A DNA stretch of 64,000 bases, taken from the NCBI RefSeq assembly GCF_017308985.1, contig NZ_JADWPE010000002.1:620001-684000 (forward strand), written 5' to 3'. The notes under the pieces were generated by a model. That model was not told the DNA's origin. It worked only from the letters and a program-made list of their open reading frames with translations, and searched no databases. The translations under genes and the position numbers were made by a program. This document shows positions 12,801-55,846 of the stretch, in pieces. The stretch comes from Lysobacter changpingensis. Its GTDB lineage: Bacteria; Pseudomonadota; Gammaproteobacteria; Xanthomonadales; Xanthomonadaceae. Numbering within the stretch: the first letter of the stretch is position 1; each line of letters begins with the position of its first letter.

Positions 12801-15800
12801 GTTCGGCGGCGCGGCGCTCGGCCTCGGCACGTTCGGCAGCGAGGCGTTCGGCTTGCGCCTGCTCGGCCGCGATGCGCTCGGCTTCCAGGCGCTCGGCTTC
12901 GGCGGCTTCGGCGGCGAGGCGTTCGGCTTCGCGTCGTTCCGCGTCCGCGCGCGCGTCTTCCTCGCGCTTGAGCAGCGCCAGGCGTTCGGCTTCGCGCTGC
13001 TGTTCTTCCAGCGCGAAACGCTCCGCTTCCAGGCGTTCGACTTCGATGCGCTCGGCGTTGGCGCGCTCGATCGCCTCGCGTTCGGCCTCGATGCGGCGCG
13101 CTTCGGCCAGCTCGGCCTCGATGCGCGCGGCGTGCGCGGGATCGGAGAGGTAGTCCGGGCCGACGTCGGCGGCCAGGTCGGTGAACTCGCTGAGGTCGAT
13201 CGCGGTGAACGCGGGCTCGGCCGGCTCGTGCTGCATCGGCTGGCGCGCGTCCGGCAGGCTGTCGCGCAGCGCGCGCATGCGCTCGGCGAGGCCGTCGAAG
13301 GTCGGGATGCGCGGTGCCGGCGACTTCAGCGTCGCCAGCGTGCGGCGGATCGCGTCGGCGACCTCGCCCATCGCAGCCACGCCCTCGGTGCTGGCGGGCT
13401 GGGCGGAGGCCAGCAGGCGCTTGACGTAGACCTCGGTGGGACCGGTGATCTCGGTGATCACCGGCACTTCGGTCATCGCGAAGGCGCCGTTGAGCGTGTG
13501 GAACGCGCGCTGCAGACCGTCGTCGGCCGGGCGCGGCTGCGCCTGGGCGGCGGCCAGCCACTGTTCGATCGTGGCCAGATGGCCGCTGACTTCGGCGTCG
13601 AGGATTTCCAGCAGCACCGAATCGACCGAGGCCGGCACGCCGGACTCGGGTTCCAGCACCGGGGCGGCGTCGAGGACGGGCACGTCGTCGAAGCTGATTT
13701 CCTCGACGTCCACGCCGTCCAGGCCGTCGAAGCTGACGGCTTCCAGCGTGATCTCCTCGATCGCCGGCTCGGCGACCGGTTCGACCACCGGCTCGACCGC
13801 CTGGACAACCACTTCCACCTTCGGCGGCGCGGGCGTGTACAGCGTTTCGTCGCCCTCGGCGAGGCGATCGGCGTGGGCTTCCATCGCCGGCAGGTCGGCG
13901 GTGATGGCGCCTTCGTTGCGCAGCGCGGCGTGCAACTGCGGCAGCGCCGTGTACGCGTGGCCGACCAGGCCGATCACCGCCGGGCTCGCCGGACGGGTGC
14001 CGTCGAGCACGCGATTGAGCAGGTTCTCGATCTTCCAGCTGAACTCGCCCAGCGTCTTCGCGCCGACGAGGCGGCCCGAACCCTTGAGCGTGTGGAATAC
14101 GCGGCGGATCGGACGCAGGCGCTCGCTGTCTTCCGGCCGCGCGTGCCATTCGGGCAGCAGGTCGCCCAGATGGCGGATTTCCTCGTCGAGTTCCTCGAGG
14201 AACACCTCGCGGATCTCGTCGTCGATGTCGTCGCTGTGTTCGAAGCCGCCGGCGGCGATCTGCTGCGGCGTGCTCGCGACCGGCGCGGGCGCCGGCGCCG
14301 GAGCGGCCGGCGCGGAAGCGGCGACCTGCGCGACCGGCACTTCGGCGGCCAGCGTCGGCGATGGCGTCAACGCATTCGCGTCGAAGGCCGGCGCGGCCGG
14401 CGTGCCAAGCGTGATCTCGTCGGTCAGTTCGAAGTCCGGAACGCGCGCCAGGTCCTCGCGGCTGATCGGCGAGGACGGCGCCATCGTCGCGGCGATGTCG
14501 AACTCCGGCAGCGGCCAGTAGCGCAGCGCTTCCAGGCTCTGGCGGGTGATGTCGAGGATGTGGTTGCGGTTCGGGCGCTGCTCGCGCAGCGCTTCGAGGT
14601 AGTACTCAAGACTCGCGAGCGCGTCGGCGAGCGTGTCCAGCTGCTGGCCGTTGGGCACGCGCTTGCGGCCGATCAGCTCGACCTCGGTGTAGCGCTTCAC
14701 GCCGGTGAGGTAGTCGGCCGGCTGCGGCAGCTCCAGCATGCGCAAGGCGCCGGCGACTTCGTCCAGCACGCGCGGGACTTCGGCCAGTTCGGCGTGGTCC
14801 CAGTTGGTTTCCACGAACGCGACGAACGCCTGGCGCGCATCGCCGAAGTTGGCGATGGCTTCGCGCACGAGCACGTCGAGCACCTTGCGCGCCTCGCCGG
14901 CGAGCAGGTCGTCCTCGGCGCCGGCGTCGGGCAGGCCCAGGCGCGAGACCTGGTCGTCCAGCGAGGCGTCGACGTAGAGCAAGGCGCCTGCGACATCGAG
15001 CAGCGCGCCTTCGTCGGCCGGACGCTTGCCGGAAACGATGTCGTGCATCGCATCGCGCTGCTGCAGCACGACGGTGCGGGCGACGCCCAGTCCCATCATG
15101 CCGAGCGTGTCGCTGACGCGGCCGAGCGCTTCCACCTGCGGCTTGAGCTCGGCGACGTCGGTCTGGCCGGTGCGCAGGTGCAGGTCGAGCGCGTCCTTGA
15201 CGCGCAACAGGTCTTCCTTGATCGCCGCGGCGACGGTGTCCAGCAGCGCGCGGTTGCGGCCCGACAACGAGCCGCGTGCGTGTTCGAGTTCGGACTCGCT
15301 GGGCAGGTGCGACGCCAGTTCGAAGGTGTGGCGCAGATCGTCCAGCGCCGGATGGCGGCCGTCGCTGTGGGCGACGTGGTAGAGCAGCTGGCGGGTCGGC
15401 TCGGCCGCCGGCTCGGAGCGGTGCGCACCGAAACCGTCGTCGGCGAGCATCAGGCGCGCTTCGCGCTCGACGCCGCCGAAGGCCTGGCGCAGCGCGCGCG
15501 TGGCCGGCAGCGCGCCGTCGCGCAGGGCGCCGGCAACGGACGATGCGACCCACAGCATGCGGCGCACGGGTTCGAGCACGACCTCGCCGAGCAGGCCGTC
15601 GATGGCGCCGGCGAGCTTCTCGGGCTGGGTCGGGTTGCCGTCTTCCGGCCAGTTCGCCAGCGCATCGCGCAGGGCGGCCAGGTGCGGCGACGTCGCGCCG
15701 CGCGTCGGCGCAGCCGCCGGCAGGGCGCTGGGCAGGTTGGCCGGGAGCGGGCGGTCGAGATCCGGCGCGAACAGCACGCTTTCGTTGAGGCCCGCCTCGC

Positions 15801-16194
15801 CGCGCGTGGCGCGCAGTTCGTTGAGCAGCGGCAGCAACACGATCGGAATGTCGCGATGGCCGCCCTGCAGGCGTTCCAGGTAATCGGGCAGCAGGACGAC
15901 GCCGCGCATCAGCGCCGCGCAGGCTTCGTCGCGGTCGGCGACCTTGCCCTGCTGCAATGCCAGCGCCAGGCGCTCCATCTCCTCGGCGACCATCGCCGGC
16001 GCGTACAGCTCGACCATGCGCAGCGTGCCGTGCACCTGGTGCAGCTGGTCGGCGCAGTGGCGCATGCGGGTGGCGTCGGCGGGATTCTCGGCGTACGCCT
16101 CGATCTCCTGCTGGGCCAGGCGCAGGGTCTCGTCCAGCTCGGGCTTGATCCAACCCAGCGTGGTCGTGTCGATGGCCTCGCGCATCACGGTCAT
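9802..16194 (-). CDS. chpA: ChpA, giant hybrid CheA-type histidine kinase of the type IV pilus Chp system
   Basis: A 2130-residue kinase. At least four Hpt-like modules can be seen: a weak one at about 20-120 ([11 protein letters not shown]), a good one near 697 ([12 protein letters not shown]), a degenerate one near 896 ([10 protein letters not shown]), and a canonical one near 1383 ([12 protein letters not shown]). Residues about 1020-1250 are a charged Ala/Glu/Arg coiled-coil linker built from AERLEAER-type units. The CheA core follows: dimerisation segment about 1530-1660, HATPase N box [12 protein letters not shown] near 1717 and DDGAGL near 1764, CheW domain about 1845-1990, and a C-terminal receiver with phosphoacceptor Asp near 2058 ([11 protein letters not shown]). 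SD GAGG precedes the ATG. It should phosphorylate PilG and PilH. Confidence 0.95.
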
Positions 16195-46083: not shown

Positions 46084-46473
46084 ATGCCCACGCCCATCAA
46101 CCGTGGCGCAGGCTGGATCATCTACGAAGACGACGTTTCCTTCGGCGGACCGTGCCGGCTGATGTCGTTGTTGCCGGCGCATCGCAGCGTGGCGTCGGTG
46201 GCGCGGTACGCCGAGCAGGTCTACGTCGATCGCCATGCGACGCTGGAGGAGCGTTTCCAGTACCGGCGCAAGCCGCAGGATTCGCGCTATTCGGCCAAGA
46301 CCGATCCGCGCCACGGCGGCATCTACGTCGGGCACTCGCCGCGGTTCGTCGGCGTGTATGCGCAGAGGATCGTGTCGCATGCGAGCGTGCTCGAGTTCTG
46401 GTACCGCATCGCCACCGACCGCGGAACGCCCGGGCCGATCTTCGAGTGCCGGATGTTGCGGCTCCCCGTCTGA
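46084..46473 (+). CDS. Hypothetical protein, tandem paralogue A
   Basis: A 129-residue soluble protein of unknown function. Landmarks shared with the next gene are GWIIYED near the N-terminus, LLPAHRS, a basic middle, GGIYVGHSP, VGVYAQRI, SVLEFWYRIAT and PIFECR. Predicted strands alternate with short loops and there is no signal peptide or membrane helix. The second copy lies 178 bases downstream in the same orientation. I do not recognise the family. Confidence 0.75.
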   Translation: MPTPINRGAGWIIYEDDVSFGGPCRLMSLLPAHRSVASVARYAEQVYVDRHATLEERFQYRRKPQDSRYSAKTDPRHGGIYVGHSPRFVGVYAQRIVSHASVLEFWYRIATDRGTPGPIFECRMLRLPV

Positions 46474-46651
46474 ACGCACGACATGCGTGACACCGGGGGC
46501 AATGGCGCGGCGACTGCTCTTCGTCGGCGAACGCGTCGTCCGGTGCGCGCGCGGTGCGTGCGCGGATCAAGAATGCGTCTCGAAAGGTGGCGCCGCGCAC
46601 GTTCGTTGGACAGAACGTGCCAACGGCTTGATCGAACAGAGAGTCGACGCC

Positions 46652-47047
46652 ATGGACCAGAGCGCGGGCTGGGTGATCTACGAAGACTATGGTGGCCACG
46701 ATGCGCCGCGCCGGCTGCTGTCGGTGCTGCCGGCGCACAAGAGCTACGCCGCCGTCGCGCGCGTCATGGAGCAGATGTACGCCGAGCGGTTCGCGTTGAT
46801 GGACGAGCCCGTCCCGACCGGCCGGCGCCCTCGCCGCCCGCGTTTCATGGCGCAGAAGGACGCGCTATACGGGGCGATCTACGTCGGCCACCTGCCGGTG
46901 TACATCGGCACCTACGCGCACCGGATGCGGGTGAACGGGGCGACGCTGGAGTTCTGGTACCGCATTTCGACCCGCGGCGACCCGTGCCGGCCCGTCTTCG
47001 AGGACCGCCACCAGCTGCTCTCGATCGTCTGGAACACCACGCCCTGA
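46652..47047 (+). CDS. Hypothetical protein, tandem paralogue B
   Basis: A 131-residue protein clearly paralogous to its upstream neighbour: GWVIYEDYGG, RLLSVLPAHKSYAAVARVM, AIYVGHLPVYIGTYAHRM, TLEFWYRIST and PVFEDR. It lacks a signal peptide and has no catalytic motif that I know. GAGAG eight bases upstream is a possible ribosome site. The pair precedes the HU gene. The reading frame extends far upstream without a stop, but homology with paralogue A begins at this ATG. Confidence 0.75.
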   Translation: MDQSAGWVIYEDYGGHDAPRRLLSVLPAHKSYAAVARVMEQMYAERFALMDEPVPTGRRPRRPRFMAQKDALYGAIYVGHLPVYIGTYAHRMRVNGATLEFWYRISTRGDPCRPVFEDRHQLLSIVWNTTP

Positions 47048-47584: not shown

Positions 47585-48274
47585 TCATCCCTCGATGCCG
47601 ACGAGGCCTAGATCCTTCGCGACCTGACCCGCGCACTCCGCGCCGATGGCGGTCGCCGCTTCCACGACTTTCGCGTATTCGTCCGCCTGCCATTCGGGCA
47701 GCGGGCGCACCTGCTGAAACTGGCCCGTGCAGGTCGTCCTGCCGGCCTTCTTGCCTTCCGGCGTCTTCATCGACACGTCGATCGCGTACGCCAGGTGGTA
47801 GTCGTCCTTGAACATGCCCTCGTACTCCAGCGTCCACACCTTCTGCTGGACCTGCACGCGATAGCCCACCGCGGCGTCGGCGGCGTGCACGGGCACGCCG
47901 ATCTCGGCCAGGCGCTGCTGCAACGCGTCCTGCATGACCGGCGCCGGACCAAGCAGGCCGACGCGCTGGTGACCGTAGTCGTCGATGGCCTGCTGGGTCA
48001 GGTTTCCGGCCTGCTGCGCGATCTCCAGCGCATCCTGCGGATTGCTCGCGCCGCTGCCCATGGCATTGCCTACCAGCATGCCGATGCCGAAGGCCGCCAT
48101 GCGCTGGCCCTTGGTCTTCACGGCCACGTTCTTGGCGCCCTTGACGGGCTCGAACGTGATGCCGCCGGCGCGCAGCGCATCGATGGATACCGCCTCGGCA
48201 GCCGCGGCCTGCGTGCTGCAGACGGCGAGTGCGAGCGAGAGGAGGCAGGCGGTGGTTTTCTTGTTCATTTGCAT
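47585..48274 (-). CDS. Secreted protein of unknown function
   Basis: A 229-residue exported protein with a signal peptide to about 26 (KKTTACLLSLALAVCSTQAAAA). A small Gly-rich hydrophobic stretch at about 58-75 (MAAFGIGMLVGNAMGSG) resembles a glycine zipper. The remainder is a mixed domain with YRVQVQQKVWTLEYEGMF and VSMKTPEGKKAGRTTCTGQF, with two cysteines that may pair. No family recognised. Start at 48274 or two codons later. It faces HU in convergent orientation. Confidence 0.75.
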   Translation of the reverse strand: MQMNKKTTACLLSLALAVCSTQAAAAEAVSIDALRAGGITFEPVKGAKNVAVKTKGQRMAAFGIGMLVGNAMGSGASNPQDALEIAQQAGNLTQQAIDDYGHQRVGLLGPAPVMQDALQQRLAEIGVPVHAADAAVGYRVQVQQKVWTLEYEGMFKDDYHLAYAIDVSMKTPEGKKAGRTTCTGQFQQVRPLPEWQADEYAKVVEAATAIGAECAGQVAKDLGLVGIEG

Positions 48275-48890
48275 GGGTCGATCAGGTTGGTTGGAAAGGA
48301 CACAGCGTTCGGCTGTCGGGATGGATGGATATGTTTGAGGGGCATCAGCGCAGACGCGCCCGCAATCCGCGTCGGGCGATGCAGCACGGGTGGCGGGTTC
48401 GTGGGTACGTCGCGGTCGCGCGCTTCGGTTCGCATGCGTCGCTCTTGCGCTGACGTCAGCGTTCGCATCAGTGTCGGGGGCGCGGGCAATCCACACGCCA
48501 TTGGGACCCAGCTGTGCAAACCACATCCCTGTCGATCGAGCCACGTAGATCCTTCTCCTGCATCGGACGCGCAGGGTATTCCTGGCGCCACACAGCACGA
48601 GTGATCGGGTCACCGGCTGTCGGATACTCCTGAGATCGGCCGCAGATCGGGATACTTGAGGTCTTCAAGTGCGGGCGCGCTCTGAGGCCGCTGCGTCGCG
48701 TGCGAGCAAGCGATCACATGCAAGCGCATGTCGCCATGAGCAACGCTGCTTGAAACCAACTGAAGAAAGATGCGGCGCGCCGAAGCTTCATCTGATCGCC
48801 TCATTATGTGACGCGACGCGCAATTTGTTGACAGCTGTTCGCTCCGGCACTGATGATCAGCGCAGGGAGTCAGGACGCGACGGGGGCTGC
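48275..48890. other. Gap without a supportable gene
   Basis: These 616 bases separate the divergent secreted-protein gene and the YHYH/Excalibur gene. Reading frames here translate into Arg/Ser/Cys-rich sequence without family features. A frame continuous with the next gene extends upstream to 48669, but a signal peptide starts only at 48891. The only regulatory candidate is the promoter at 48828-48857. Confidence 0.5.
48828..48857 (+). promoter_or_regulatory. Candidate sigma-70 promoter
   Basis: TTGACA at 48828-48833 is a perfect -35 hexamer in an AT-rich context. GATGAT at 48852-48857, 18 bases further, matches TATAAT at four of six positions. The pair lies 33 bases before the ATG of the YHYH/Excalibur gene. 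Confidence 0.4.
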
Positions 48891-49235
48891 ATGCGCGCGA
48901 CTTGTCGTTTTGCCGTGATCGTCTATTTGATCGCATCCAGCAGCGCGTTCGCGCACGGAGGCGGCCTTGATAAGGACGGTTGCCACACCAATCGCAAGAC
49001 CGGCGACTATCACTGTCATCGCGGTGGCGGTAGTTCATCAAACCATTCGCCCAACATTCCGACGAACAACCTGCAGCCAACTCGCAGGGCGCCGGCGCGA
49101 ACAAACGCATTTGCCAACTGCCCGGAAGCGCGAGCAGCTGGAGCAGCGCCTGTATACCGGGGCGAGCCTGGCTATGGGCCACATCTGGACCGCGACGGCG
49201 ACGGCGTTGGCTGCGAACCCTATCGCGGCCGATAG
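48891..49235 (+). CDS. Secreted YHYH / Excalibur calcium-binding mini-protein
   Basis: A 114-residue exported protein. The signal peptide (CRFAVIVYLIASSSAFA) ends near residue 20. The mature N-terminus is a His/Cys-rich motif, HGGGLDKDGCHTNRKTGDYH followed by CHRGG, of the YHYH type. A Ser/Asn/Pro linker then leads to an Excalibur motif at the C-terminus, NCPEARAAGAAPVYRG...DRDGDGVGCE, with the Asp-x-Asp-x-Asp-Gly calcium loop and two paired cysteines. Usually linked to extracellular nucleases or cell-surface proteins; here both motifs stand without an enzyme domain. Confidence 0.82.
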   Translation: MRATCRFAVIVYLIASSSAFAHGGGLDKDGCHTNRKTGDYHCHRGGGSSSNHSPNIPTNNLQPTRRAPARTNAFANCPEARAAGAAPVYRGEPGYGPHLDRDGDGVGCEPYRGR

Positions 49236-49488
49236 GGCACGAGAAAGTAGTCCAACTGCACTACGACCCTTAGGGGCAAGGGAAGTGCGAAGGTTCATCC
49301 TTGACCAGAACGCCCAGAACAACGTCGTCCACGACACCGGCACTGGCTGCGCGTATATGCCAGCGCCCGCAAATCAAATCGATCGCATGGCGTCGCACGC
49401 GTGAATGTCTCGCTTGAACCGTTTGACGCTCGACGCACCGGCCTGGGCCGGCTCAAAATTGGACCTCTATAGCGTCTGAGATTCGTCC

Positions 49489-50235
49489 ATGGCCCGATTC
49501 CCGGCTGCATGCGCCCTTCTGGTTTTCATGCCGATGGCCGGGCTCGCGGCGGCCAAAGCCGGTACTGCCACGGCTGTCAGTATCGAGATTTCCCAGGGCA
49601 CATTCGACGGCACCGGATTCGACGCTACGACTCGGAATCCTGACCTTGGCAAGCGCTATCACGCGGCTCTCGCCGAAGCGGTTCGTCGGATATGGCCCGA
49701 CATGGGGCAAGAAGAATCCACTTCATGTGAGATGCATTTGCGGCAGCTCCCAGGTGGCACAGTGCTAGGTGTCGACTTTGGCCCTGCTTGCGGTTTCAGC
49801 AGTCAGCTCAAGGCGGAGATCTACAAGGCCATTCAACGGACCTCGCCGCTGCCCTACCCGGGTTACGAGGCCGTGTTCAATCGTCTATTGACCGTGCGCA
49901 TCACGGTTGGCAGGGATGCACATTCGACGGAGAGCCACACGTCTCCTGGGCAGAATGGCTATTTCGATCCTGTCATTGTCTATCGGGTTACGCCGGTGTA
50001 TCCGGACCGCGCCGCAGCCCAAGGCATCGGCGGAACCGTCAGGGTTGAACTGACGGTGGGCGAAGATGGCAAGGTAAAGGCGGTGCAGATCCTGAAATCG
50101 TCTCGCCAGGAATCCCTGGACGCCGCGGCGCGCGAAGCCTGTCTGCAGTGGATGTTCCAGCCGGCGATGCTGGACGGAAAGGCCGTTGAGTCGCGCTGGA
50201 CTGACGAACTCGTGTTCGCACCTTCGTCCTTGTGA
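49489..50235 (+). CDS. Exported protein joining a TolA C-terminal-like domain to a TonB C-terminal domain
   Basis: A 248-residue protein with one N-terminal hydrophobic segment (about 5-22, ACALLVFMPMAGLAAAKA). Residues about 53-140 match the C-terminal domain of the TolA encoded at 54875-55846: RYHAALAEAVRRIW against RYAAALQEAILAKW, LRQLPGGTVLGVDFGPACGF against IRQLPGGQVMSAEVSSPCAY, and PLPYPGYEAVFNRLLTV against PLPYAGFESVFARNLTL. Residues about 165-245 are a TonB_C domain (VTPVYPDRAAAQGIGGTVRV, AREACLQWMFQPAMLDG). There is no long spacer. Function unknown; it could bind Tol and TonB partners. Confidence 0.8.
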   Translation: MARFPAACALLVFMPMAGLAAAKAGTATAVSIEISQGTFDGTGFDATTRNPDLGKRYHAALAEAVRRIWPDMGQEESTSCEMHLRQLPGGTVLGVDFGPACGFSSQLKAEIYKAIQRTSPLPYPGYEAVFNRLLTVRITVGRDAHSTESHTSPGQNGYFDPVIVYRVTPVYPDRAAAQGIGGTVRVELTVGEDGKVKAVQILKSSRQESLDAAAREACLQWMFQPAMLDGKAVESRWTDELVFAPSSL

Positions 50236-50376
50236 TCAGTGGCTGATGGTGTCGACGCCGGAGCGCCGACTGGCGGCCCCCGATGACGAATTACGGAGTC
50301 AATTACGGACGTGACGGAGTTAACTACGGCCGTGGCAGTTTCTCGCCAGATGAGCTGCTTAACTGCCTGATCGATA

Positions 50377-50452
50377 TGGTGGGCCGTGATGGATTCGAAC
50401 CATCGACCAGCGGATTAAAAGTCCGATGCTCTACCGACTGAGCTAACGGCCC
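50377..50452 (-). tRNA. tRNA-Lys (anticodon TTT)
   Basis: A 76-nt tRNA on the minus strand. Read 5' to 3' it starts GGGCCGTTAGCTCAG at 50452, has the D arm, an anticodon stem GGACT-TTTAATCC with anticodon TTT, the T arm GGTTCGAATCC, and a matching acceptor strand ACGGCCC with encoded A-CCA at 50377-50380. It lies downstream of the queC-queE genes, whose product queuosine modifies other tRNAs (GUN anticodons), not this one. Confidence 0.97.
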
Positions 50453-50574
50453 ACTTTGACGTTCGGCGCGGGCGATGCCCGGGCGCGAACCCGGCGTCGC
50501 GCCGGGGCGTGCATTCTAACGCAGGGCGCCGTGACGGTGCAGGCGGCGTGCGTCGCACGCGGGGCGAATGCGGT

Positions 50575-53391: not shown

Positions 53392-54708
53392 TCAACGCGG
53401 CAAACGGAACGGCCCCCAGGCCGGCTCACGCACGTCCCCATCCGCCAGCACCAGGCGCTGGCGCACCCGGCCGTCGGACGAAACTGCGTAGAGCACGCCC
53501 CGGCGGCCCTCGCGCGCAGCATAAAGGATCATTGCCCCATTGGGTGCAAAGCTCGGCGACTCATCGAGGGATCCGGGCGAAAGTGTGCTCCATCGCGCAC
53601 CCCCGAGGCTGCTGTCCATCAGTGCGATGCGGTAGTTGTTGCCGCTGCCCTGGGCCGTGGCGATCTTCTTGCCGTCGAAGGACACGCTGGCGCTGGCGTT
53701 GTAGCTGCCCTGGAAGGTCACGCGCGTGGCGCTGCCGCCGCTCGACGGGACCGAGTAGATCTGCGGACGCCCGCCGCGGTCGGAGGTGAAGTAGATCGTG
53801 CTGCCGTCCGCGCTCCACGTCGGCTCGGTGTCGATCGCGAAGTGGTTGGTCAGCTGGGTCAGGTTCTTGCTGCCCAGGTCCATCACGTAGATCTCCGGAT
53901 TACCCGTGCGCGACAGCGTCAGCGCGAGGCGACGACCGTCCGGCGAGAACGACGGCGCGCCATTGATGCCGCGGTACTTGGCGATCAGCTCGCGCGCGCC
54001 GGTGGAGATGTTCTGGATGTAGATCGACGAATTGCCGCCTTCGAAGCTGACGTAGGCCAGGCGGTTGCCGTCCGGGCTCCACGACGGCGACAGCAGCGGT
54101 TCGGGCGAACGCACCACCGTCTGCGGATTGAAGCCGTCCGAATCGGCGACCATCAGCGCGTACTGCGCACCGCGGCCGGAGCCGGTGGCGGTGACGTAGG
54201 CGATGCGGGTGAAGAACGCGCCGCGCACGCCGGTGATTTTCTCGTACACGGCGTCGGCGATCTGGTGCGCGACGTCGCGCATCGCGTTGGCGCGGGCGGT
54301 CAGCGCGAAGCCGAGCAGGCGCTGCTGCTTGGCAACGTCGAACAGTTCGTACTCGACGCGGAAGCTGCCGGCGCCTGCATCGAGCACGCGGCCCACGACG
54401 ATGTAGTCCTGGTTGAGCGCGCGCCACGTCGGGTAGTTGATCTCGCCGCCGCGGGTCGGCTTCTCGACGATGTCGTTGACCGGCAACGGACGGAACTGGC
54501 CCGAACGCGCCAGGTCGGCGGTGACCACCTGGGCGACATCGGTCTGCGGGGCCGTCGCGCTGCCTTGGTAGGGCATCGGCACGACGACGATCGGCATGGC
54601 CGCGGCGTTGCCGCCGACGATGTCGATCTCCAGCCCTTGCTGGGCCAGGGCGGACAGGGGCAGCAGGAGGGCGAGCAGCGAGGCCAGCCAGGCGAGGGAT
54701 CGTTTCAT
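53392..54708 (-). CDS. tolB: Tol-Pal system periplasmic protein TolB
   Basis: A 438-residue protein with a signal peptide to about 22 ([16 protein letters not shown]). The N-terminal TolB domain (about 23-165) is followed by a six-bladed propeller built from [50 protein letters not shown] and [12 protein letters not shown] repeats. It shuttles between Pal and TolA. The ATG at 54708 (MKRSLAW) follows an ACTGGAG site. It lies 166 bases after tolA. Confidence 0.96.
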
Positions 54709-54874
54709 CGGCACTCCAGTCATCAATCCAGTCGGTCGTCGGATCGGCGCAGGTCAATCCGTTCAGCTTTGTAATTGTTAACGCCGGGAGGTGAACGCCG
54801 CCTCAAGCTGAACCCCGCCGCGCCGCGAACCGTCGCGGCCGGGCCCGCTTGGCGCCGGGCCACCGTCGGCGGCC

Positions 54875-55846
54875 TCAGCGATCCTGGGCCGTGAAGTTCA
54901 GCGTCAGGTTGCGGGCGAACACGGATTCGAAGCCGGCGTACGGCAAGGGCTGGGCCTTCAGGACCGCCGCCTCGATCGAACGCCGGCCCTGCTCGTCGTA
55001 AGCGCAGGGCGAGGACACTTCGGCGCTCATCACCTGTCCGCCCGGCAACTGGCGGATCAGCAGCGTGCAGCGCGCGCCGACCGGCACCGTCTCCGGGCGC
55101 GTCCACTTGGCGAGGATGGCTTCCTGCAACGCCGCGGCATAGCGGGCCTTGAGGCCGGTGTCCGTGCCGTTGTTGCCCGGCGGCGGGCTGGCGGCATCGC
55201 TGCCGCTGCTCGGCTCGGTCTCGGACGACTGGCGCGCGCGCACGTCGGCGATCTGGCGCAGGCGCTGCTCGGCGAGATTGGCCTCACGCGCGGCCTGCTC
55301 GCGCTTCTTGCGGATCTCGGCGAGCTTGCGTTCCCGCTCCTGCGCCTGTTGTTCGGCCAGGCGGCGCTGCTGCTCGACTTCCTGCTGGCGCTTCTGTTCG
55401 GTCAGGTCGACCTGTTCCTGCTTGCGCTTGAGCTCCTGCGCCTTCTTCTCTTCGGCCGGAGTCGGGGTCGGCGTTTCGACGACCGCTTCCTGGTTCTCGG
55501 TGTCGGGCACCGGGATGAAGTCCTGCGCTTCCTGCTGCGGCGGCGCGACGGCGTCCTGCGGCGCGGGTTCGGGCAGCGGCTGCGGCAGCGGCGCGACGTC
55601 TTCGGGTTCGGGCGGCGGCGGGATCTCCTCCTCGACCGGCTTCGGGCGATCGCGCAGCGTGCGCTGCATCGCCGGCGACAGCGCGTTGGCGTCGATAAGC
55701 TCGGCCGCCACGGGCGATCCAGCCACCGACACCGGCGCCGTGGAACGGGTCCACAGCAGGCCGATGAACATCAGGCCGAACAGCAGCGCGTGCAGCAGCA
55801 GCGCCGCGATGACCGCCTGCGTGGTGTCTGCGCGCGATTCCCGCAT
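54875..55846 (-). CDS. tolA: Cell envelope integrity protein TolA
   Basis: A 323-residue inner-membrane protein spanning the periplasm. Membrane helix at about 10-32 (AVIAALLLHALLFGLMFIGL), Pro/Glu-rich stretch at about 60-120, a long charged helical domain at about 120-215 (KRQQEVEQQRRLAEQQAQER), and the C-terminal TolA domain at about 235-323 (RYAAALQEAILAKW, IRQLPGGQV, PYAGFESVFARNLTLNF) that contacts TolB/Pal. It overlaps tolR by one base. Confidence 0.95.
   Translation of the reverse strand: MRESRADTTQAVIAALLLHALLFGLMFIGLLWTRSTAPVSVAGSPVAAELIDANALSPAMQRTLRDRPKPVEEEIPPPPEPEDVAPLPQPLPEPAPQDAVAPPQQEAQDFIPVPDTENQEAVVETPTPTPAEEKKAQELKRKQEQVDLTEQKRQQEVEQQRRLAEQQAQERERKLAEIRKKREQAAREANLAEQRLRQIADVRARQSSETEPSSGSDAASPPPGNNGTDTGLKARYAAALQEAILAKWTRPETVPVGARCTLLIRQLPGGQVMSAEVSSPCAYDEQGRRSIEAAVLKAQPLPYAGFESVFARNLTLNFTAQDR

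Follow-up and report, generated by a model that had tools for sequence, protein, structure and literature searches.

A protein joining a TolA-type and a TonB-type domain in Lysobacter changpingensis, and the recurrence of unanchored TolA domains in its family

What could a bacterial protein do that carries the ligand-binding domains of both TolA and TonB, and none of the parts that energise them? The question is raised by P0001, a protein of 248 amino acids (aa) encoded on the plus strand at 49489 to 50235 of a 64,000-nucleotide stretch of the Lysobacter changpingensis genome (contig NZ_JADWPE010000002.1, positions 620,001 to 684,000; hereafter the window). The open frame is intact across 248 codons, from an ATG at 49489 to a stop that ends at 50235, and encodes a putative export segment, a TolA-type domain, and a TonB-type domain, in that order. 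A first look at the DNA letters (the original prediction) had described a secreted TolA_C-TonB_C hybrid near the tol-pal operon, and had proposed that it could bridge or titrate partners of the two systems.

P0001 joins two different domains

The second half of P0001 (residues 165–243; 49981 to 50217, plus strand) is a clear member of the TonB C-terminal domain family. TonB_C (PF03544) matches residues 169–237 above its cut-off (E = 9.8e-21), TIGR01352 matches the same half with E = 2.5e-19, and the best sequence matches in the PDB are the TonB chains 2k9k, 6i97, and 6fip. For the first half (residues 56–138; 49654 to 49902, plus strand), TonB_2 (PF13103) has its best match at residues 56–131 (42.7 bits, above cut-off), and neither of the TolA-named library models passes its own threshold: PF06519 gives 16.5 bits over residues 54–139 (E = 0.01; cut-off 25), and the C-terminal part of TIGR02794 (275–360) gives 32.4 bits over residues 41–140 (E = 5.5e-8; cut-off 59.45). 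A search of the whole source genome with PF06519 returns zero matches, missing even the TolA encoded in the window, so this model is a poor yardstick for TolA in this genome, and we therefore built dedicated profiles that exclude P0001 (26 TolA rows and 8 TonB rows).

These profiles separate the two halves with no cross-reactivity. The first half scores 64.9 bits with the TolA profile vs −1.9 with the TonB profile, and the second half 91.9 bits with the TonB profile vs 1.8 with the TolA profile, while the best of 200 shuffled copies of P0001 reach 2.7 and 7.1 bits (109 and 125 returned a score). One alignment (A3), which placed TonB domains on the TolA half, was not used. The separation rules out a tandem, divergent TonB_C repeat, the alternative that the original prediction had itself raised, and upholds the order it had read from the letters; its other refuting outcome, a score for one domain only, is half borne out in the curated libraries, whose TolA-named models stay below their cut-offs, and is not borne out with a TolA profile of this family.

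Further comparisons were made for each half. BLASTP aligns P0001 with the window's TolA at 2e-16 in a single comparison (33% over 134 aa), and the sequence blocks that the two had been said to share are present. In searches of its own genome (E up to 1), TolA is the sole match of the first half, and the second half matches 10 other places (E 4e-13 to 0.125). In the AlphaFold2 model, the first half matches the folds of 1tol, 2x9a, and 1lr0 by structural alignment, so that this half resembles domain III of TolA (TIGR02794) by both profile and predicted fold. Both domains retain conserved residues, including the PLPY block and two cysteines of the first domain, and both cysteines are conserved in the aligned rows.

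The motor-coupling parts of TolA and TonB are absent

P0001 opens with a short positive start, followed by a hydrophobic core and small residues (about 24 residues; 49489 to 49560, plus strand), a composition that points to a putative signal peptide by a hydropathy heuristic. The hydrophobic core has no histidine. In contrast, the membrane helix carries a histidine in 26 of 26 TolA proteins from the loci we fetched (several of which are near-identical), and TolA His22 is reported to be essential for coupling (PMC7066135). Export-like TolA-domain relatives, described below, have a histidine in or near the hydrophobic segment in 8 of 47 cases.

Only about 30 residues separate the export segment from the TolA-type domain, which leaves no counterpart of TolA domain II. 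Likewise, residues 1–164 consist of the export-like start and the TolA-type domain, and contain neither the energised membrane anchor nor the proline-rich spanning region of TonB. A single N-terminal hydrophobic segment with no periplasm-spanning linker is what the original prediction had described. Because P0001 lacks both a membrane-helix histidine and a spanning linker, neither TolQR nor ExbBD would be expected to energise it, as judged from sequence.

Ahead of the TolA-type domain, AlphaFold2 predicts an extra beta-strand at residues 30–36 (49576 to 49596, plus strand; mean pLDDT of 78 for the block of residues 31–40), and the structural alignment of the model with 1tol begins at residue 30. 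This candidate self-capping strand may, tentatively, lie at the ligand edge of the domain. Residues 30–37 also form the best segment of P0001 against the TolB N-terminus (8 columns), yet 322 of 5000 permutations of residues 23–55 and 656 of 2000 whole-protein shuffles score as high; the likeness is suggestive at most.

P0001 stands in a variable stretch outside the tol-pal operon

The tolB (53392 to 54726) and tolA (54875 to 55846; C-terminal domain at about 54887–55144) genes of the window are on the minus strand. P0001 lies on the strand opposite tolA, with tRNA-Lys, queC, queE, cpoB, pal, and tolB in between, and is not a member of the tol-pal operon. We compared this region with 11 congeneric stretches of 19.9 kb each (tblastn at 1e-5), all of which keep the order tRNA-Lys-queC-queE-cpoB-pal-tolB-tolA-tolR-tolQ-ybgC; the tRNA-Lys (TTT) gene that adjoins P0001 (50377 to 50452, minus strand) is beside queC in 11 of 11.

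The stretch that holds P0001, bounded by this tRNA and by an HU-type gene (start 47150), is variable. The same G+C-poor stretch encodes an Excalibur-domain protein (48669 to 49235, plus strand; export-like start by eye), and an open reading frame (ORF) lies at 47585–48613. Neither these two genes nor P0001 are found in the 11 congeneric stretches, except that the TolA half of P0001 matches tolA. The 11 whole congeneric genomes contain no relative of P0001 at E 1e-20, and each has a single TolA-type match (1e-8). The G+C content of third codon positions (GC3) is 0.675 in P0001, 0.608 in the Excalibur gene, and 0.796 in ORF 47585–48613, compared with 0.842–0.955 in 13 other genes of the region. 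The G+C-poor third positions and the absence from 11 congeners suggest that P0001 was recently acquired. As such, the nearness to tol-pal that the original prediction had noted looks positional, and membership by position is ruled out by the opposite strand, a variable stretch not common to the congeners, and a foreign-looking codon composition.

Specific routes of arrival were also considered. The window holds no second copy of 12–25 bases of the tRNA-Lys 3' end, so tRNA-Lys was rejected as an integration site and we claim no island boundary. A phage origin was rejected, with no match in the phage collection at E 1e-5, as was a plasmid origin: of the 40 plasmid records with a match, none matches over 80% of the query, and all 20 rows listed fall within residues 151–244. 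Elsewhere in the region, two adjacent paralogous small proteins (smA and smB; 46084–47047) are present in 2 of 11 congeneric stretches and have no Pfam match at E 0.01.

No second case of the domain order in the sampled genomes

With P0001 as query, no other protein with a TolA-type domain followed by a TonB-type domain was found in three overlapping samples, comprising 395 genomes of the family, 398 of the order, and 369 of the class (E 1e-15, 1e-18, and 1e-14, respectively); the order is unusual at the cut-offs used. A diverged relative could have been missed, because scoring was confined in many genomes to the top 6 or 7 candidates. Each of the remaining matches listed spans one half of P0001, in some cases together with part of the linker. 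The TolA-domain alignment gave 78 pattern stretches in viral contigs, none of them confirmed, and the three loci that were confirmed in a scan of named genomes have TonB-type domains only.

In Bryocella elongata, two adjacent frames (L009:7674–9364) have export-like starts and two and three matched TonB-type domains, with a fourth recognisable by eye in the second frame. This multi-TonB_C arrangement resembles P0001 in its export-like start, and differs in that no TolA-type domain was matched.

Unanchored TolA domains recur in the family, often inside the tol-pal operon

A further observation goes beyond the original prediction. A TolA-domain profile of six rows, the P0001 half among them (A1), has matches in 386 of 395 family genomes, and two or more in 59 of 395. 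These 59 genomes were re-searched and 63 stretches fetched, with three hits of one fragmented assembly (G018) left out. The stretches contain 89 matching ORFs, i.e. 26 TolA and 63 second copies. The second copies were sorted by a home-made hydropathy rule, and because this rule cannot separate a cleaved signal from an anchor, their export is putative. Twenty-four are export-like, have a short linker, and lie between tolA and tolB; together with L094, a second TolA-type gene is found at this position in 25 of 395 family genomes. The tolA stop and the chosen start of the 24 export-like copies are separated by −4 to 209 bases, with a one-base overlap (−1) in 8 of 24. A further 17 export-like copies lie elsewhere in the genome, and others, likewise export-like, carry an extension (about 120 aa in 4 and about 480 aa in 2). 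Thirteen look like anchored TolA/TonB-type paralogues, since their linker is long (at least 77 residues) or an export start could not be found, and one (L113) has a lipobox-like start.

One genus (g16) stands out, with two or more TolA-type matches in 19 of 20 genomes and the extra, export-like tolA-tolB gene in 15 of 20 (L076, L079–L083, L085, L087–L089, L091, L093, and L095–L097). In a tree that left out 12 ORFs under 60 bits, these 15 copies group together in a single clade (99/96; few columns, and bootstrap not settled). Eleven chosen pairs of the 105 possible have dN/dS values of 0.18–0.52 (Nei-Gojobori, no significance test), and all 15 copies share a basic, Trp-containing C-terminal tail, with a Cys pair before the domain in 13 of 15. 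In one other genome (L054), the extra copy groups with the TolA of that genome (97/79), suggesting more than one origin of the class. P0001 has the export-like start, short linker, and TolA-type domain of the proposed class; its TolA-type half has a long branch (1.64) in the tree, which separates it from the window's TolA and gives it no settled place among the other second copies. In a class sample of 312 genomes, two or more matches are found in 6 of 308 not listed as the same family, these being profile counts rather than fetched loci, made with a profile that is less sensitive there.

Several individual copies have features of their own. L094:1999-2373 (between tolA and tolB) and L092:2384-2683 are TolA-domain copies with no readable export start. 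In L072, L086, L090, and L100, the extension of about 120 aa after the TolA domain shares a C...G...C...P pattern; by eye it resembles a second TolA/TonB-type domain, a reading that we do not claim (profile comparison probability of 3.4%, and nothing from Pfam). In L075:1544-4243 and L078:1087-3231, the export-like TolA domain precedes some 480 residues of TPR-like appearance by eye, and L110 holds a pair of TolA-domain genes (1751-2206 and 15399-15803) that closely resemble each other, are strongly diverged, and are separated by about 13 kb.

Comparison with described proteins

P0001 combines known domains in an order new to the sampled genomes, with the defining motor and linker parts absent. 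The stand-alone TolA domains of the family (e.g. L052, L053, L076, and L079–L083) share with it an export-like start, a short linker, and a TolA-type domain, and, unlike P0001, have no TonB-type second domain; those named, and the other g16 copies, lie between tolA and tolB. Of the exported proteins described in the literature, the closest that we found to contain a lobe of this fold is VreA (PA0674) of the Pseudomonas aeruginosa PUMA3 system, described as mostly soluble and two-lobed, with a signal sequence and one lobe of TolA/TonB fold (PMC2729926). The other VreA lobe is an STN signalling domain, and its partners are VreI and VreR; P0001 shows neither, and Pfam finds no STN domain in it at E up to 1.

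According to a 2025 survey, species typically have a single tolA and the tol-pal operon order is largely conserved (PMC12204202), and the relevant parts of that survey do not mention an exported TolA domain. In other literature, covered mostly at the level of titles and the beginnings of abstracts, we likewise recognised no description of an exported TolA domain that stands alone, or of a TolA_C-TonB_C protein.

A possible decoy and its alternatives

We propose, tentatively and with somewhat less than even confidence, that P0001 is an unenergised competitor or decoy for ligands that bind TolA and TonB. The protein would be exported to the periplasm, where its TolA-type and TonB-type domains could each take up peptide strands by beta-strand addition, with no pulling. 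Candidate ligands are the TolB N-terminus, TonB boxes, and the tails with which bacteriocins and filamentous phages that depend on Tol or Ton enter the cell. Strand addition is reported to underlie both TolA-TolB and TonB-receptor contacts, which are of low affinity (PMC7066135, PMC7391070), with a Kd of about 40–200 uM for TolA-TolB (PMC7391070), and colicins and filamentous phages are known to exploit Tol (PMC7391070, PMC4339652).

Given 37 plug-domain matches in the source genome and the existence of Tol-using colicins and phages, endogenous titration and interception of invaders are both possible. We favour interception by a two-headed decoy over routine control of the cell's own Tol/Ton system, because native TolA-TolB affinity is low and P0001 is a lone, probably recently acquired, two-headed orphan; for the operonic relatives we lean toward endogenous tuning. 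Between the two roles originally suggested, titration is likelier than bridging, because nothing seems to anchor P0001 or couple it to a motor. A more elaborate version appears unlikely. In it, P0001 would present both the Tol and the Ton docking domain, which serve group A and group B colicins as hooks (and, in the case of TolA, filamentous phages), and a TolB-like strand of its own would keep the decoy shut until displaced by a stronger ligand. P0001 would then mark the two-headed end of a broader group of exported TolA domains, part of it encoded within the tol-pal operon.

The operonic copies themselves speak for a rather doubtful alternative, in which P0001 is an endogenous regulator that titrates the cell's own TolB and TonB-dependent receptors, thereby adjusting Pal release or vesiculation, a role that the TolA domains with genes between tolA and tolB may share. 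Their recurrence in 25 of 395 genomes, 24 of them export-like, the one-base overlap with tolA in 8 of 24 chosen starts, and the single-genus clade of 15 (bootstrap not settled) with its dN/dS values in 11 of 105 pairs all fit such a role, whereas P0001 lies outside the operon, is not found in the rest of the genus, looks foreign, and has a TolA-type domain on a long branch. Its isolation in one species, at a variable site, with that same long branch and no promoter-like match, would suit a non-functional newcomer, i.e. a chance, unselected fusion that arrived with foreign DNA; the intact frame and the conserved residues kept in both domains make this distinctly improbable. VreA provides a precedent for a soluble periplasmic TolA/TonB-fold protein that relays a signal to an inner-membrane regulator, yet the missing STN domain and the lack of a visible sigma/anti-sigma pair among neighbouring ORFs (mostly named by eye, five scanned with Pfam) render a VreA-like adaptor very unlikely. 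We give just as little credence to a self-contained module whose TolA-type groove is permanently capped by the N-terminal strand, with the TonB-type domain as the sole working part: the predicted strand and the 1tol alignment from residue 30 are consistent with it, but they amount to one prediction, and the TolB likeness is equalled by many shuffles.

Several points weigh against the decoy proposal. The ligand, the expression, and the phage or bacteriocin link of P0001 are all without direct evidence, and to compete in solution with a complex of low affinity, P0001 would need to be present in large amounts. No promoter-like site was found in 49150–50480, and no clear Shine-Dalgarno sequence was seen by eye. 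P0001 is known from one species only, which precludes a selection test on it, and its TonB-type half is modelled with low confidence (block mean pLDDT of 38–64 from residue 161). Lastly, if the predicted strand 30–36 fills the groove, the TolA-type domain may be self-blocked and unable to compete.

TolA and TonB are usually treated as anchored force transducers. If purifying selection maintains exported TolA domains without a motor in this family, sometimes with a start codon that overlaps the tolA stop, then a soluble partner of the Tol system has gone unrecognised, and the tuning of TolB recruitment and vesicle release would become testable via one small gene. The TolA-TonB fusion P0001 would add a naturally occurring reagent with the potential to act on the two systems together.
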